Shown piece by piece: positions 123 to 33,871 of a stretch of DNA of 64,000 nucleotides. The notes below the pieces were generated by a model. It searched no databases, was not told the DNA's origin, and was given only the letters and a program-made list of their open reading frames with translations. The stretch covers positions 1 to 64,000 of the forward strand of contig SVUJ01000008.1 in the NCBI GenBank assembly GCA_015063305.1, in the 5' to 3' direction. This DNA is from Oscillospiraceae bacterium. Lineage in GTDB: Bacteria > Bacillota > Clostridia > Oscillospirales > CAG-272. Every line of letters starts with the position of its first letter. Within the stretch, counting starts at the first letter, position 1. Made by a program: the position numbers and the translations under genes.

Positions 123-3100
123 TTACTTAAAATACTCCACAGCGGATTCGAACATTTTCATATCGAAGTCGCCATAGACGTTCTTATAGAGTCCGTTGCC
201 TATACGCTCGGAGTGTCCCATCTTTCCGAGGACGTGACCGTCGGGAGATGTGATACCCTCGATAGCGTGGCAGGAATTATTGGGGTTATAGCGGATATCC
301 GAGGTGGGTACGCCATTGAGATCGACGTACTGAGTAGCGATCTGACCGTTTTCGGCGAGCTTTGCTATAAGCTCATCGGAAGCGAGGAAGCGGCCCTCAC
401 CGTGGGATATCGGAACTGTATATACCTCACCCGCCTTGGTATTTGCGAACCAAGGTGACTTGTTCGACGCGATACGTGTACGAACGAGGCGCGACTGGTG
501 GCGACCGATGGTATTGAAGGTCAGAGTGGGGCAGTTCTCGTCGGTGTCGATTATCTCGCCGTAAGGAACAAGACCCAGCTTTATAAGTGCCTGGAAACCG
601 TTACAGATACCGCACATAAGACCGCCGCGAGTTTTGAGAAGCTCGTTTACCTGCTCCTTGATAGCGCCGTTACGGAAGAAAGCTGTGATAAACTTTCCTG
701 AGCCGTCGGGCTCATCTCCGCCCGAGAATCCACCGGGAACGAAGATTATCTGCGACTGGGCGATCTTCTTTGCGAAGCTCTCTACAGATTCAGCGATACC
801 GCGTGAGGAGAGGTTGTTAACAACGAATATCTCGGTTTCAGCGCCTGCGCGTTTGAATACCTTTGCGGAATCGAACTCACAGTTAGTACCCGGGAATACG
901 GGGATAAGCACCTTGGGCTTAGCACTCTTTATGATAGCCGCACTTCTCTGCTCCGCGTTGTAGGTGTAAGCGGGGATCTCTCCCTTAGCCTCACGCGCGT
1001 TTACAGGGAATACGCTCTCAAGCTTAGCCTCGTATACTGTGTAGAGCTCGTCAAGCGAAACGCTCTCGGAAGCGTAAGCTATCTCTGCCGATTCGGTAGT
1101 CTTACCGAGCAGTTCAAATCCTGCGGGAATTTCTCCGTCAACCTCAAGCAGGAACGAACCGTAGGAGTATCCGAATATCTTGTCGAGCGACACGCCCGAT
1201 TCAAAAGCAAATCCAATATCGTTACCGAAGCACATCTTCATAACAGCCTCGGCGATACCGCCGTAGGTAGGCGTGTAAGCCGCATATACTCTACCCTCTG
1301 CCACAAGCTCGTTCACCTTCTTATATACGCTGATGAGCGACTCTGCCCGGGGCAGATCGTTCTCATCGTATTCGGGAGAAATAAGAACGACGTTATGTCC
1401 CGCGCCCTTGAACTCGGGAGATACGATAGAGCTTATCTTATCGGTAGTTACCGCAAAGGAAACGAGCGTGGGCGGAACATCGATATGCTCAAAGCTTCCG
1501 CTCATAGAGTCCTTACCGCCGATAGAAGCGATGCCGAGCTCCTTCTGCGCCTTGAACGCGCCAAGAAGCGCCGAAAGAGGCTTGCCCCATCTGGTGGGCT
1601 CTTTCATAGGCTTCTCAAAATACTCCTGGAACGTAAGATATACGTCCTCGAAGGTAGCACCTGTAGCCATCAGCTTGGATACCGACTCAACTACCGCGAG
1701 ATATGCTCCGTGGTAGGGGCTCTTCTCGGATATAAAGGGGTTGAAGCCCCAAGACATTACTGAGCAGGTATCTGTGTCCTCGCTCTCGACCGATATTTTG
1801 TGTACCATAGCCTGAATAGGTGTGCTCTGATTCTTTCCACCGAAGGGCATAAGAACACTTCCCGCACCGATGGTAGAGTCAAATCTCTCGGAAAGACCGC
1901 GCTTGGAACATACGTTAAGGTCGGACGCAAGTGCCTTCATATTGTCAGCAAACGCACCGCTGACCTTTCTATCGTAAGACTGGGGAGCTTTAGCCTTTAT
2001 CGTTATGTGCTTTTCAGCACCGTTGGAGTTGAGGAATTCACGGGAGATATCAACTATCACCTTGGAGTTCCAGGTCATTCTGAGTCTGGGCTCAGCCTTT
2101 ACCTTAGCTACAACGGTAGCCTCAAGGTTCTCGGATGCAGCAAGCTCGCAGAATCTTTCCACGTCACCCGCCTCAACAACGACCGCCATTCTCTCCTGCG
2201 ACTCACTTATCGCAAGCTCTGTTCCGTCAAGTCCCTCGTATTTCTTGGGAACTGCGTTAAGGTCGATATCTATTCCGTCGGCAAGCTCACCTATCGCAAC
2301 AGATACGCCGCCTGCGCCAAAGTCGTTACAACGCTTGATAAGTCTTGAAGCCTCGCTGTTTCTGAACAATCTCTGAAGCTTTCTCTCCTCGGGAGCATTA
2401 CCCTTCTGGACCTCAGCTCCGCAGCTCTCAAGCGAGTGGAGAGTGTGCGACTTGGACGAGCCCGTAGCTCCTCCGCAGCCGTCGCGGCCTGTTCTTCCGC
2501 CGAGAAGCACTATGATATCTCCGGGAGCGGGAACTTCGCGTCTTACATTCTTTGCGGGAGCGGCAGCTATAACAGCGCCTATCTCCATTCTCTTGGCAAC
2601 GTATCCGTCGTGGTAGAGCTCGTCTACCTGACCCGTAGCAAGACCTATCTGGTTACCGTACGAGGAATATCCTGCCGCCGCGGTGGTTACTATCTTTCTC
2701 TGAGGAAGCTTACCCTCCATAGTTTCGGATACGGGGAGCAGAGGATCTGCCGCGCCTGTAACTCTCATCGCCGCGTAAACGTAGGAACGTCCCGAAAGAG
2801 GATCTCGAATAGCTCCTCCGATACAGGTAGCCGCGCCTCCGAAGGGCTCTATCTCGGTGGGATGGTTGTGTGTTTCGTTCTTGAAGAGCAAGAGCCAATC
2901 CTGCTCATCGCCGCCAACGTTAACCTTTATCTTGACGGTACAAGCGTTTATCTCCTCAGACTCGTCGAGCTTGGGAAGCTTGCCCTCAGCCTTGAGATAT
3001 CTGACGGCAATAGTGGCAACGTCCATAAGGTTTATCGGCTTGGTTCTGCCAAGCTCCGCTCTCGTTGCGATATACTCGTCATACGCCGCGCGAAGAAGCT

Positions 3101-3815
3101 CGTCCTCAAACTCAACGCTGTCGATGGTCGTGAGGAAGGTGGTGTGACGGCAGTGGTCAGACCAATATGTATCTATCATCTTTATTTCGGTGATAGTGGG
3201 ATCTCTCTGCTCGGTTCTGAAATAGTCGCGGCAGAAACGGATATCGTCGATATCCATAGCAAGTCCCTTTTCTTTTATAAACTGTGCAAGTCCCGCCTCA
3301 TCAAGCGCGGTAAAACCGTCAAGAGTAGCAACGCTCTCGGGAACGGTATACGCCATAGCGAGAGTTTCGTACTCCTCAAAGGACGCCTCGCGCGACTCAA
3401 CGGGGTTGATAACGTACTTTTTGATAGCCTCAAGCGCCTCGGCACTTACATCTCCGTAGAGCTTGTATATCCTTGCCGTCTTGACTGTAGGACGCTCGCC
3501 CTGAGATATTATCTGGATACACTGAGCCGCCGAGTCTGCTCTCTGGTCGAACTGACCGGGGAGATACTCTACCGCGAAATCAACACTTCCGTCGTTCTCA
3601 TACTCGTAGCTGACAACGTCAAGCTGGGGCTCGGAGAATACCGTGGATACCGCGTAATCAAAAAGCTGCTTGTCGATGTTTTCAACGTCGTATCTGTTCA
3701 GTATACGAACGGCGCTGATGCCGTCTATCTGCAAAAGATTTTTTATTTCACTAAGAAGAGATGCCGCCTCGTTTGCAAGCTCGCTCTTCTTTTCAACATA
3801 AACTCTGTAAACCAT
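123..3815 (-). CDS. purL: Phosphoribosylformylglycinamidine synthase (FGAM synthase), single chain
   Basis: The 1230-residue protein makes FGAM from FGAR, glutamine and ATP, the fourth step of de novo purine synthesis, in the cytoplasm. It is the large single-chain type: synthetase halves carry NHPTEIEPFGGAATC near residue 315 and the fold repeat FNPFISEKSPYHGAYLAV near 690. A class I glutamine amidotransferase domain occupies roughly residues 968-1230, with nucleophile Cys in GICNGFQAL near 1070 and His/Glu in GKMGHSE near 1205. No separate purQ or purS is needed. ATG at 3815 follows GGAGAG. It is the last gene of the purine operon, 14 bases after purD, and is followed by a strong hairpin. 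Identification is from direct motif reading. Confidence 0.97.
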   Translation of the reverse strand: MVYRVYVEKKSELANEAASLLSEIKNLLQIDGISAVRILNRYDVENIDKQLFDYAVSTVFSEPQLDVVSYEYENDGSVDFAVEYLPGQFDQRADSAAQCIQIISQGERPTVKTARIYKLYGDVSAEALEAIKKYVINPVESREASFEEYETLAMAYTVPESVATLDGFTALDEAGLAQFIKEKGLAMDIDDIRFCRDYFRTEQRDPTITEIKMIDTYWSDHCRHTTFLTTIDSVEFEDELLRAAYDEYIATRAELGRTKPINLMDVATIAVRYLKAEGKLPKLDESEEINACTVKIKVNVGGDEQDWLLLFKNETHNHPTEIEPFGGAATCIGGAIRDPLSGRSYVYAAMRVTGAADPLLPVSETMEGKLPQRKIVTTAAAGYSSYGNQIGLATGQVDELYHDGYVAKRMEIGAVIAAAPAKNVRREVPAPGDIIVLLGGRTGRDGCGGATGSSKSHTLHSLESCGAEVQKGNAPEERKLQRLFRNSEASRLIKRCNDFGAGGVSVAIGELADGIDIDLNAVPKKYEGLDGTELAISESQERMAVVVEAGDVERFCELAASENLEATVVAKVKAEPRLRMTWNSKVIVDISREFLNSNGAEKHITIKAKAPQSYDRKVSGAFADNMKALASDLNVCSKRGLSERFDSTIGAGSVLMPFGGKNQSTPIQAMVHKISVESEDTDTCSVMSWGFNPFISEKSPYHGAYLAVVESVSKLMATGATFEDVYLTFQEYFEKPMKEPTRWGKPLSALLGAFKAQKELGIASIGGKDSMSGSFEHIDVPPTLVSFAVTTDKISSIVSPEFKGAGHNVVLISPEYDENDLPRAESLISVYKKVNELVAEGRVYAAYTPTYGGIAEAVMKMCFGNDIGFAFESGVSLDKIFGYSYGSFLLEVDGEIPAGFELLGKTTESAEIAYASESVSLDELYTVYEAKLESVFPVNAREAKGEIPAYTYNAEQRSAAIIKSAKPKVLIPVFPGTNCEFDSAKVFKRAGAETEIFVVNNLSSRGIAESVESFAKKIAQSQIIFVPGGFSGGDEPDGSGKFITAFFRNGAIKEQVNELLKTRGGLMCGICNGFQALIKLGLVPYGEIIDTDENCPTLTFNTIGRHQSRLVRTRIASNKSPWFANTKAGEVYTVPISHGEGRFLASDELIAKLAENGQIATQYVDLNGVPTSDIRYNPNNSCHAIEGITSPDGHVLGKMGHSERIGNGLYKNVYGDFDMKMFESAVEYFK

Positions 3816-9297: not shown

Positions 9298-9329
9298 GGG
9301 CAGTCCTATCCTATCACGGTGGACTGCCC
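9298..9329 (-). terminator. Terminator arm of the ZTP riboswitch
   Basis: A 9-bp stem (9321-9329 with 9298-9306) is followed on the minus strand by GTTTTTATTTTATTTT. The 5' arm GGGCAGTCC starts inside the conserved CCGCCTGGGCA of the riboswitch, so ligand binding and terminator formation exclude each other. Confidence 0.9.
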
Positions 9330-9425
9330 AGGCGGTCGGCAAATATAATTCTCTGCTTCCGCATGGTCAATTCCATTTATCCGCCGGTAACAGAAAACCC
9401 ACAAGCATCTTTGCTTGTTTATTCT
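9325..9425 (-). promoter_or_regulatory. ZTP (pfl) riboswitch ahead of purE
   Basis: Read on the minus strand, the leader contains the two conserved ZTP domains: a 5' part with GGGTTTTCTGTTACCGGCG and GGAATTGACCATGCGGAAGC, and after a variable linker the 3' part GCCGACCGCCTGGGCA. ZTP/ZMP accumulate when 10-formyl-THF is short; binding turns on purine and folate genes. The overlap with the terminator at 9298-9329 predicts transcriptional ON control. Boundaries are approximate. Confidence 0.93.
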
Positions 9426-9557: not shown

Positions 9558-10232
9558 TTACTTAACTTCTTTGAGAGTATTAAAGACATTTTCTGCCAAC
9601 GCAGGATCAGCTACGCCCTCTGTAATAGATATAGTGTAGGTGTATTCTCCCACGGTCGTCACATACTGAGTCTGCTTCATAATAACTCCGCTAAGTTCGG
9701 CATCGTAAGAAATAACGACAACATCAAGTCCGTTAGTTGTCTTATGTGACACCTTAACATTGGTGAGAGGCATTCCCAACATCTCATAGATGGGCGCGTA
9801 CTCTTCTTCGAAGCTCTCCGTAGTCATATCATTGTAAATATCGGTTGCATCCTCAGAAACTACAGTAATATTATTCATGTTCTGTGGGTTCTGCAATATT
9901 GACATACCGTCCTCAGTCTTTTCCCAAGTGTTAGGATAAGCAAAAGAAATGTCATCATTGCTAAAAAGCTTATATCCAGAAGGAACAGACGAACCTGTGG
10001 TTGCAGCAGTTGTTGACGCAGTTGTTGATGCGGTTGTTGATGCGGTTGTTGATGCGGTTGTTGATGCGGTTGTTGAGCCGGGTCTTAAAGCAGGATCATC
10101 TATCGGCGAGGTAGTGGTATTCGCCGTTGTAGTGGTCTGTGCAGTATCTCCGTTATCGTCACAAGCGCTGAACACACAAAGTGTTGCCGCAACGAGTGTA
10201 AGAGCTATCAACATACATAATAATTTTTTCAT
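9558..10232 (-). CDS. Secreted lipoprotein with TTAS-repeat linker, function unknown
   Basis: The 224-residue protein begins MKKLLCMLIALTLVAATLC and has a lipobox ending FSAC, so it should be a lipid-anchored surface protein. Residues about 30-80 are a Thr/Ala/Ser linker with tandem TTAS units. The C-terminal ~140 residues contain SNDDISFAYPNTWEKT, which resembles the start of PsbP/DcrB-like domains, but I cannot confirm the family. ATG at 10232 follows AGAGAGG; an upstream ATG at 10277 lacks a ribosome site and would spoil the signal peptide. It has its own terminator at 9506-9536. Ligand or partner is not visible. Confidence 0.85.
   Translation of the reverse strand: MKKLLCMLIALTLVAATLCVFSACDDNGDTAQTTTTANTTTSPIDDPALRPGSTTASTTASTTASTTASTTASTTAATTGSSVPSGYKLFSNDDISFAYPNTWEKTEDGMSILQNPQNMNNITVVSEDATDIYNDMTTESFEEEYAPIYEMLGMPLTNVKVSHKTTNGLDVVVISYDAELSGVIMKQTQYVTTVGEYTYTISITEGVADPALAENVFNTLKEVK
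10009..10080. repeat. 12-bp tandem repeat in the lipoprotein linker
   Basis: Six consecutive 12-base units fill this stretch. Four (10021-10068) are identical copies of GTTGTTGATGCG and the outer two are degenerate. In frame each encodes four residues (TTAS type), so copy-number slippage would lengthen or shorten the linker without a frameshift. Confidence 0.95.
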
Positions 10233-10310: not shown

Positions 10311-10853
10311 TTAATCAAAACTCGTTTTTCTCTCCACCAGCTCAAGCGCCCTTGAAACCGGCAAAACCAACATTGCCGCAACAAAGTTAAACGAGCCGTG
10401 TATTATGTCAAACGGAAGCCCCGCTATTATCCAACTCACCGTCATTTCGGGGGTGAAATTGAAGGCAAGCATCTGAAACGGAGCATACAAAACGCCAAAA
10501 GCAAAGCCGTGCAGAGCGCATATTACCATATAAAGCGGCACTCTCCACCTTGGGCTGAGCCTGCGCGGTATCAGCATAGCCATTCCCCACAGAGGAAGCC
10601 ATATGTAAAGATAAGGATACCACCAAAGTCCAAATCCCCCAAAGGAACCGTTCAAAAACACGTATACGTATATAGGAACGAGCGCCCAAGAACGATAGAC
10701 CACGGTAAACGTGATTATAAGCGCGCCAACTATGTGCATATTCGGCAGAAACTCCATAAGGATATCCGATATGAACATAAGAGCGCCGAGCATCGCCCCC
10801 ACAACGAGCAACCTGAGAACTTCTAAACCGCTTCTCTTTTTCTTTGACTTCAT
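10311..10853 (-). CDS. ECF transporter S component, probably for cobalamin
   Basis: The 180-residue protein has five or six hydrophobic segments and the small size of an S (substrate-binding) component of energy-coupling factor transporters, which share an ATPase/EcfT module encoded elsewhere. Because it follows a DUF4430 lipoprotein gene by 3 bases behind a cobalamin riboswitch, cobalamin or a corrinoid is the likely substrate, as for CbrT-type S components. ATG at 10853 has no clear ribosome site of its own, so translational coupling to the upstream gene is likely. The family call is from topology and context. Confidence 0.8.
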   Translation of the reverse strand: MKSKKKRSGLEVLRLLVVGAMLGALMFISDILMEFLPNMHIVGALIITFTVVYRSWALVPIYVYVFLNGSFGGFGLWWYPYLYIWLPLWGMAMLIPRRLSPRWRVPLYMVICALHGFAFGVLYAPFQMLAFNFTPEMTVSWIIAGLPFDIIHGSFNFVAAMLVLPVSRALELVERKTSFD

Positions 10854-10856
10854 AAA

Positions 10857-11354
10857 TTACATAGGCTTGAAGGAATATTCCTTGCCTGCCTCTATCTCGG
10901 TAGAATCAACTCCCGTCATTGAATACTCTCCGTCTACGTGGAAAGCCCAATATTTTCCGTGGGTATCCCAGTCGATAGTTTCTCCGTCAACTTTTTTGAC
11001 GTAAAGCCCGTAAGGACCGTCCTCGCCCTCGATAAGTCCCGCGTCAAGAAGCGCCTCGCCTACCGTGGTCTTGTTTGTCCTTACCGTAAAAGTCTTGCTC
11101 TCTCCCGCAAGAGTTGTGACCTTGAACACGAATTCCGTGTTACCCTCTCCGCGCACGTTAGGGTCTGCCGTGGTTGCGGCTGTTGTACCTGCTGTTGTAC
11201 CTGCGGTAGTTGCTACAGTAGTAGCCTCGGTGGTCTGTTCGGGTTCGTTCGTCTTATCACAAGCAACTGCCCAAAATGCTATAGCCGCAGTAAGCACAAG
11301 CAGGAGCAGCACAGACAAAATTCTGAACATCATTGTTTTTGTCGAATTTCTCAT
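10857..11354 (-). CDS. DUF4430 lipoprotein, probable cobalamin-binding surface protein
   Basis: The 165-residue protein has a signal segment with a lipobox ending WAVAC, a Thr/Ala-rich linker (about residues 38-60), and a C-terminal domain with TVGEALLDAGLIEGEDGPYG and YWAFHVDGEYSMTGVD. This is the DUF4430 pattern, related to the C-terminal beta domain of transcobalamin and intrinsic factor. ATG at 11354 follows AAGGAGAAAC; the longer open frame upstream runs through the riboswitch and is not used. It lies under a cobalamin riboswitch and is followed by an ECF S component, so I infer that it captures corrinoids and delivers them to that transporter. Confidence 0.87.
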   Translation of the reverse strand: MRNSTKTMMFRILSVLLLLVLTAAIAFWAVACDKTNEPEQTTEATTVATTAGTTAGTTAATTADPNVRGEGNTEFVFKVTTLAGESKTFTVRTNKTTVGEALLDAGLIEGEDGPYGLYVKKVDGETIDWDTHGKYWAFHVDGEYSMTGVDSTEIEAGKEYSFKPM

Positions 11355-11426
11355 TTTGTTTCTCCTTAAATCTTTTATTTTTGTATCCGCCGTATTCGAT
11401 TGTAAAATGTTGGTTCGTGCAACTAA

Positions 11427-11622
11427 AATACGGCTTGGGGTAAGTCTTCCGACTTGCGGATAAGTGATCTCTTCACCGCGCATCGGGCATCTTCTCGAAA
11501 AAATTTCAATGATGTAACGGTACTTGCGGCAGTACCGCGCCCTATGCTCTCCGCTTACGGCGACACGCTCGTACAGGCATCTCACCTGTTTCCTTATTAA
11601 GCTCCGAGGAGCGCCCCAAAAA
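11427..11622 (-). promoter_or_regulatory. Cobalamin riboswitch
   Basis: On the minus strand the leader shows TTAATAAGGAAACAGGTGAG, GCCGTAAGCGGAGAGC, and near the end AAGTCGGAAGACTTACC, matching in order the conserved segments of cobalamin riboswitches, with a pairing of GGGGC and GCCCC-like ends as P1. A following 8-bp hairpin (11427-11434 with 11389-11396) has no U run, so control may be translational. Boundaries are approximate. Confidence 0.88.
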
Positions 11623-11631
11623 TACTCGTAC

Positions 11632-11660
11632 ATTCTATCACATATCTCGCCCGCTGTCAA
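11632..11660 (-). promoter_or_regulatory. Sigma-A promoter of the cobalamin unit
   Basis: TTGACA (11655-11660) and TAGAAT (11632-11637) with 17 bases between them, on the minus strand, immediately ahead of the riboswitch. Confidence 0.88.
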
Positions 11661-32247: not shown

Positions 32248-32342
32248 TTACTCTCTCATCTACTCGGAATTAGCACCTTACTTTAAAAAGCAGGTTGCCG
32301 TGGTTTCACAGAGCCTGTCTCTCCACCACTCTTGATAAGAAT
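32247..32342 (-). promoter_or_regulatory. SAM-I (S-box) riboswitch of metK
   Basis: The minus-strand leader has TTCTTATCAAGAGTGGTGGA, GAAACCACGGCAACC, AAGGTGCTAATTCC and GATGAGAGAGTAAG in the S-box order. SAM binding would allow the terminator at 32229-32247 to form and lower metK expression. Confidence 0.97.
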
Positions 32343-33722: not shown

Positions 33723-33735
33723 GGACTATAATTAT

Positions 33736-33846
33736 ATCTTCTCTCATCCGGACTTTACCGTCGGCACAGGAATCTCACCTGTTCGGCTCTATAAAGAGTT
33801 CGCGGGCTATACCGCCGGTATGGACTTTCACCATTCCCCGAAGCGT
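33736..33846 (-). promoter_or_regulatory. FMN riboswitch (RFN element) of ribU
   Basis: On the minus strand: TTCGGGGAATGGTGAAAG, ACCGGCGGTATAGCCCGCG, CAGGTGAGATTCCTG, GCCGACGGTAAAGTCCGG and ATGAGAGAAGAT, which is the full RFN order. FMN binding should favour the terminator and shut off ribU. Confidence 0.97.
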
Positions 33847-33871
33847 ATCTAAAAGGATACGTCATTTTTGC

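Follow-up and report, generated by a model that had tools for sequence, protein, structure and literature searches.

The window, a 64,000-nucleotide stretch of an Oscillospiraceae genome, carries on its minus strand a promoter-like site, followed by a cobalamin riboswitch, the gene of a DUF4430 lipoprotein, and the gene of an ECF transporter S component. The features of the locus are:

11660-11632, minus strand: candidate sigma-70-like promoter, TTGACA-17-TAGAAT with an extended -10 TG (consensus scan, 11/12 matches)
11633-11422, minus strand: cobalamin riboswitch aptamer, RF00174, class I (cmscan, 66.1 bits against a gathering cut-off of 31.5)
11421-11355, minus strand: spacer of 67 nt between aptamer and start codon (sequence, terminator scans)
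about 11362-11367, minus strand: Shine-Dalgarno motif AAGGAG, seven bases upstream of ATG 11354
11354-10857, minus strand: DUF4430 lipoprotein, CbrS-like, 165 aa (Pfam PF14478)
11156-10860, minus strand: transcobalamin β-domain-like (β-grasp) domain, residues about 67-165 of the lipoprotein (VIA-align, Foldseek)
10853-10311, minus strand: ECF transporter S component, CbrT-like, 180 aa (profile match to 6FNP_A)

The first-pass annotation had proposed a cobalamin riboswitch in front of a DUF4430 lipoprotein and an ECF S component, and all three are in place: the covariance model RF00174 matches upstream above its gathering cut-off, PF14478 identifies the domain of the lipoprotein, and the S component is homologous to CbrT. 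The riboswitch match covers the full length of the model (positions 1-189 of 189), with E-values of 4.1e-14 in the 64 kb window and 2.4e-16 in a short stretch, and the 1.58 Mb genome contains no second RF00174 match. The leader between 11633 and 11340 folds with a z-score of -3.34 relative to dinucleotide shuffles. Of the coordinates given earlier, the lipoprotein start at 11660 was wrong and the rest hold. The 267-aa open reading frame from TTG 11660 reads through the riboswitch, and therefore we took ATG 11354, which is preceded by AAGGAG, as the true start. The lipoprotein and S component genes are separated by three bases.

The next gene downstream (9558-10232, minus strand) encodes a Thr-rich lipoprotein of no clear family. 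It has a promoter-like site of its own at 10296-10268, and its 12-nt repeats are similar to those of the DUF4430 lipoprotein linker. Just downstream, a ZMP/ZTP riboswitch (9319-9401, minus strand; RF01750, 61.6 bits) precedes putative purE, purM, purN, and purH-like genes, and constitutes a separate regulatory unit. FMN (33732-33850) and SAM (32253-32341) riboswitches lie close together on the minus strand of the window.

The lipoprotein is composed of a signal peptide, the lipobox cysteine C32, a Thr-rich linker, and a C-terminal DUF4430 domain. C32 closes the N-terminal hydrophobic segment in a lipobox-like context and is invariant in all 28 aligned sequences, and the protein is predicted to be secreted or surface-anchored. 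The DUF4430 assignment has a score of 32.1 bits against a cut-off of 23.8 and spans residues 97-159 of 165. No other protein in the whole genome contains this domain.

The AlphaFold2 model of the lipoprotein, calculated from 28 sequences, has a mean pLDDT of 87.6, and the blocks of the domain reach 93 or higher. Helix 98-104 is followed by strands 108-113 and 116-122, which form a β-hairpin after the helix, as arranged in B12 carriers. In VIA-align, the model matches 3U7Z first (Z-score 16.2, 28% identity), followed by the β domains of intrinsic factor, transcobalamin, and haptocorrin (Z-scores 11.3-12.4), after which the scores drop to general β-grasp proteins at 6.5 or less. The human B12 carriers have Z-scores of 11.6-12.4, with an rmsd of 2.1-2.6 Å over 92-96 residues in most rows and 6.4 Å in the row of 5NP4, and the identity to their β domains is 12-16%. 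The entry 5NP4 is recorded as the isolated β domain of human transcobalamin with cyanocobalamin. Foldseek returned 19 matches at an E-value of 0.001 or better, all of which are 3U7Z (1.1e-9) or B12 carriers (5e-6 to 2e-4). A structure prediction of the domain, suggested in the first-pass annotation, thus yielded a transcobalamin-like fold. When the sequence profile of the lipoprotein was compared with the PDB, the E-values were 4.5e-24 for 3U7Z and 0.0076 for haptocorrin (4KKI, deposited as transcobalamin-1). The modelled fold therefore likens the lipoprotein to transcobalamin, and the sequence does so weakly. Compared with human intrinsic factor, transcobalamin, and haptocorrin (2PMV, 2BB5, 4KKI, 5NP4), the window protein shares the β-domain fold, but lacks the α domain and would be lipid anchored. 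The lipoprotein probably binds corrinoids.

The closest solved structure to the DUF4430 domain of the window, 3U7Z, is R. gnavus RUMGNA_00854, and nothing published on its function was found under the locus tag. It was deposited as a "putative metal binding protein". Nothing else speaks for the alternative that the ligand of the lipoprotein is something unrelated, for instance a metal, and that the protein belongs to the unit by chance. We consider this alternative very improbable: the fold is that of B12 carriers, DUF4430 occurs under two types of cobalamin riboswitches in many genomes, a Lactobacillus gene order places it with nrdJ and an adenosyltransferase gene, and the 14 best Foldseek matches of a relative that combines a toroid with DUF4430 are B12 carriers, as described below.

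Neither Pfam nor NCBIfam assigns the S component to a family. A profile of 28 S-component sequences, including that of the window, was searched against all PDB sequences and had a single match up to an E-value of 10, which was CbrT (6FNP chain A, E 1.8e-10). The alignment joins positions 4-174 to chain residues 2-175, practically the full length. A cobalamin riboswitch precedes the S component gene, both here and in relatives, and gives it a B12-linked context. It is very likely that the S component takes part in corrinoid uptake. In a plasmid of Lactobacillus intestinalis, the genes are ordered nrdJ, DUF4430, ECF S component, and cobalamin adenosyltransferase, and within the matched region the S protein shows 59% identity to 6FNP. 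This gene order makes it very probable that cbrS encodes the DUF4430 protein, in which case the window pair would be cbrS-cbrT by kind.

ECF-CbrT of Lactobacillus delbrueckii (6FNP, Santos et al. 2018) is reported to take up cobalamin and cobinamide in an ATP-dependent manner, and its S component CbrT binds them with Kd values of 9 and 36 nM, respectively (PMC5997447). The same source describes Lactobacillales as lacking BtuFCD and reports a gene cluster nrdJ-cbrS-cbrT-pduO. In its passages on binding and transport of cobalamin by ECF-CbrT, no lipoprotein is mentioned, and cbrS is uncharacterised (PMC5997447). The window S component resembles this system in its full-length homology, the shared EcfAA'T module, and the lack of BtuFCD. 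However, it is distant in sequence, belongs to an uncultured bacterium, and its gene pair stands alone under a cobalamin riboswitch rather than beside nrdJ and pduO.

We surveyed the pair across the order in a sample of 197 genomes. Matches to the S protein were found at 74 places in 71 of them, and DUF4430 matches occur in 146. A DUF4430 lipoprotein lies directly upstream of the S component in 28 of the 29 loci examined; locus L005, one of the 28, is cut at the contig end, and in locus L020 the S gene has no upstream lipoprotein. Rfam detected an upstream cobalamin riboswitch above cut-off in 8 of the 29 loci, and 10 more have correctly placed and oriented matches below cut-off. Together with L033, added by our model R2, and L016, recognised by eye and then used in the model, the total is 20 of 29; the nine loci left include L005 and L006, which lack most of the leader.

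In a named genome collection, at least 581 loci were confirmed, and we analysed the best 80 of them. The lipoprotein is upstream of the S component in 71 of these 80, and it is absent in 8 of the 79 loci with room upstream (L100 has no room). A leader of at least 300 nt is available for 68 of the 71 pair loci, and 60 of the 68 contain a cobalamin riboswitch, which is class I in 40 (model R1) and class II-like in 20 (model R2). Neither model found a riboswitch in the other eight (L090, L093, L104, L105, L120, L124, L125, and L132). The two surveys are not independent, because R1 and R2 were built from leaders of the order sample and the sets of loci overlap in part (L005/L080, L007/L120).

The position and orientation of the riboswitches were controlled with 150 listed DUF4430 places, 150 RF00174 rows, and 22 RF01689 rows. 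Among the matches listed, and up to a distance of 12 kb, at least 65 of the 150 DUF4430 places are preceded by a cobalamin riboswitch on their own strand, and at one place the riboswitch lies elsewhere or is oriented differently. Similarly, among the matches listed, a riboswitch lies 300-800 nt upstream of the S component at no fewer than 40 of the 74 S places, and a misplaced one within 1.6 kb occurs at none of the 74. The linkage of DUF4430 to B12 riboswitches, raised in the first-pass annotation, is thus borne out by the survey.

The S component alone may be the whole B12 importer, with the lipoprotein doing surface work other than binding free cobalamin. It could, for example, take cobalamin from host or bacterial carriers or from cobamide-loaded proteins, or stabilise the S component. 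The published ECF-CbrT, which binds and transports cobalamin with the lipoprotein unmentioned in the passages cited above, agrees with this possibility, as do the eight loci without an upstream lipoprotein and a plasmid of E. faecalis, in which the S gene lies beside nrdJ and an adenosyltransferase gene and has no adjoining DUF4430 gene. In such places the lipoprotein is accessory at most. We nevertheless regard the possibility as unlikely for the pair, in view of the position of the lipoprotein directly upstream of S in most loci, the riboswitch that they share, and the B12-carrier fold.

The leaders are of two sorts. An intrinsic terminator lies between the aptamer and the lipoprotein gene in 16 of the 20 class II-like leaders, against 0.6 expected from mononucleotide shuffles, and their spacers have a median length of 142 nt. 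Class I leaders have a median spacer of 65 nt, and a terminator was found in 3 of the 38 tested out of 40 (0.1 expected from mononucleotide shuffles). As terminators are common in one class and rare in the other, two control modes appear to serve one gene pair: it seems to be controlled by termination under class II-like aptamers, and we infer translational control under class I aptamers, including that of the window. Terminator scans of the 67-nt window spacer found no hairpin followed by a T run, and intrinsic termination was rejected for this leader, which belongs with the short-spacer class I sort.

In cobalamin riboswitches, loop L5 pairs with a loop of the expression platform to form a kissing loop. 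The window contains a 7-nt complement of L5, TACGGCG, downstream of the aptamer, through which L5 might pair with the spacer; 4% of shuffles have a complement as good. Across 30 leaders, including that of the window and omitting the 9 of 39 leaders in which the L5 motif was not recognisable, the longest L5 complement has a mean of 3.6, compared to 3.7 in shuffles. Because there is no excess over shuffles, we do not claim control by a kissing loop.

In the order sample, DUF4430 also occurs in larger proteins and dedicated operons. A profile built from lipoproteins only was too narrow and missed DUF4430 in large surface proteins, and therefore the open reading frames of surface proteins were taken by position. 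In locus L147 (1012-7458), a riboswitch is followed by genes for a surface protein with S-layer and DUF4430 domains, a DUF4430 lipoprotein, EcfT, and an EcfA-EcfA'-S fusion. Locus L149 (193-6106) resembles L147 but has a toroid-like surface protein, and no riboswitch was found for it among the RF00174 matches listed. In both loci, a CbrT-like S domain is fused to two ATPases. L147, L149, and L154 (779-8501) are operons that combine S-layer proteins bearing a toroid-like domain or DUF4430 with a DUF4430 protein, EcfT, and EcfA.

A single protein of locus L155 (1769-3490, genome G021) contains an α/α toroid, two membrane segments, and a C-terminal DUF4430 domain, which is the domain order of animal transcobalamin, and a class II cobalamin riboswitch lies upstream of its gene. 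The model of this protein has a mean pLDDT of 75, with the DUF4430 part less sure, and its first 14 Foldseek matches are animal B12 carriers. VIA-align of the toroid alone ranked terpene cyclases and other toroid enzymes first, with no B12 carrier among 50 rows; B12 carriers ranked first only when both domains were used in Foldseek.

Three S genes that lack an upstream lipoprotein are flanked by a convergent operon with a cobalamin riboswitch (L133 3574-5703, L091 3576-5693, and L099 3861-5950, minus strand). The operon encodes a DUF4430 lipoprotein and a secreted protein of roughly 370 aa (3574-4755 in L133), for which no Pfam family scored over the cut-off in L091, L099, or L133. The secreted protein may be a separate α-domain partner, that is, part of a split transcobalamin.

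DUF4430-S pairs are also found on plasmids of Lactobacillus, Lactiplantibacillus, and Enterococcus, which indicates that the pair can move. On plasmid OY725838 of Subdoligranulum variabile (L161, about 2440-3531), a leader that by eye resembles a cobalamin riboswitch is followed by a terminator, a DUF4430 gene, and an S gene.

Many gut Clostridia need B12, and some of them have no BtuFCD. To our knowledge, B12 acquisition by the latter is poorly known. The window genome encodes a single CbiQ/EcfT protein (PF02361, 156.3 bits) with two ABC ATPase reading frames just upstream, and an EcfA-EcfA'-EcfT module is thus predicted to be present in the same cell. No FecCD/BtuC protein scored over the cut-off in the genome, whereas the control was positive in 13 of 14 genomes. 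The best FecCD match reaches 22.6 bits against a cut-off of 26.5, and the adjoining genes resemble those of a branched-chain amino acid transporter. CbiC was likewise not found in the genome, with the control positive in 7 of 14 genomes. As the genome is 94.6% complete, the absence of BtuC and CbiC is suggestive rather than proof. In the order sample, 68 genomes were counted as having the S protein and 129 as lacking it; a strong FecCD match is present in 21 of the former and 66 of the latter (Fisher p 0.007, kinship ignored; weak FecCD matches and four S places with weak scores were set aside). The pair looks like the only visible B12 import route of this bacterium, in agreement with the first-pass proposal of a route without BtuFCD.

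The genome also encodes predicted users of the vitamin. Cobalamin-dependent methionine synthase (MetH) is represented by a B12-binding domain in an 828-aa reading frame and a homocysteine methyltransferase domain. A second B12-binding protein (G000:C8:6405-6677, locus L146) looks by sequence like the small subunit of glutamate mutase, and genes next to it also resemble those of glutamate mutase. Its gene has MutL-like and fumarase-like neighbours, which hint at glutamate fermentation.

Rather than B12, the pair might import another cobamide or a corrinoid precursor, such as cobinamide. This would agree with the affinity of CbrT for cobinamide and its import by ECF-CbrT (36 nM against 9 nM for cobalamin; PMC5997447), and the missing CbiC makes salvage plausible. 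MetH and the glutamate-mutase-like protein, however, need a complete cobamide, and we consider import of a precursor or another cobamide quite unlikely.

We conclude that the two genes encode, with good likelihood, a cobalamin (corrinoid) importer of the CbrS-CbrT kind. The computed support consists of the riboswitch, the fold of the lipoprotein, the CbrT homology, the co-conservation of the three parts, the ECF module, MetH, and the lack of matches to BtuC and CbiC. The corrinoid route through a transcobalamin-like lipoprotein and an ECF S component, first suggested from the letters of the window, gains support from the CbrT homology, the carrier fold, and the kept linkage.

At low intracellular cobalamin, the riboswitch would leave the mRNA open to translation. 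The lipid-anchored lipoprotein on the outer face of the membrane would then catch cobalamin with its transcobalamin-β-like domain, and either raise the local concentration of the vitamin or pass it to the CbrT-like S component. The S component would dock on the shared EcfA-EcfA'-EcfT module, where ATP would drive release into the cytoplasm. The imported cobalamin would feed MetH, and probably a glutamate mutase, and shut the riboswitch. Direct hand-over from the lipoprotein to the S component is a possibility to which we give not quite an even chance. Tentatively, we speculate that the lipoprotein is a minimal transcobalamin, a lone β domain that captures free cobalamin with nanomolar affinity and hands it directly to the S component.

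An importer of the CbrS-CbrT kind is already in print, and the idea of scavenging dates from 2007. Burroughs et al. (2007) grouped bacterial domains with transcobalamin in the SLBB β-grasp superfamily (PMC1796856). According to the parts of that paper on the transcobalamin-like clade, secreted bacterial members are often fused to an α/α toroid and encoded in operons with CbiO-like ATPase and CbiQ-like genes, while B12 synthesis genes are missing; the bacterial proteins were predicted to be B12 scavengers, and animal B12 carriers were proposed to come from Gram-positive bacteria. The window lipoprotein contains the same domain, but in contrast to the clade members described there, it is a stand-alone β domain in a toroid-free lipoprotein paired with a CbrT-type S component, and riboswitch linkage is absent from those parts of the paper. 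Where it treats transport, a 2019 survey of gut vitamins gives the known B12 transporters as BtuFCD and CbrT (PMC6593275). With BtuFCD, the proposed system would share ATP-driven B12 import with an extracytoplasmic binding protein, but its membrane and binding proteins are unrelated, and BtuC was not found over the cut-off here. Under the term DUF4430, a paper that deals with vertebrate B12 binders comes up (PMC4350170). In a search of mainly open-access literature, neither a test of the DUF4430 lipoprotein nor a description of its riboswitch linkage was found. The present analysis adds the riboswitch linkage, the spread of the pair through gut Clostridia, and the split between terminator-type and short-spacer leaders.

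If DUF4430 lipoproteins bind corrinoids, a large family of unknown function would become B12-capture proteins, and ECF transporters would gain an extracytoplasmic partner that is missing from textbook models. The proposal from 2007 of a Gram-positive origin of animal B12 carriers would become testable at the bench. Should the lipoprotein be a minimal transcobalamin, the pair would constitute a binding-protein-dependent ECF transporter, and the lipoprotein would be a living relative of the stock behind animal intrinsic factor and transcobalamin.
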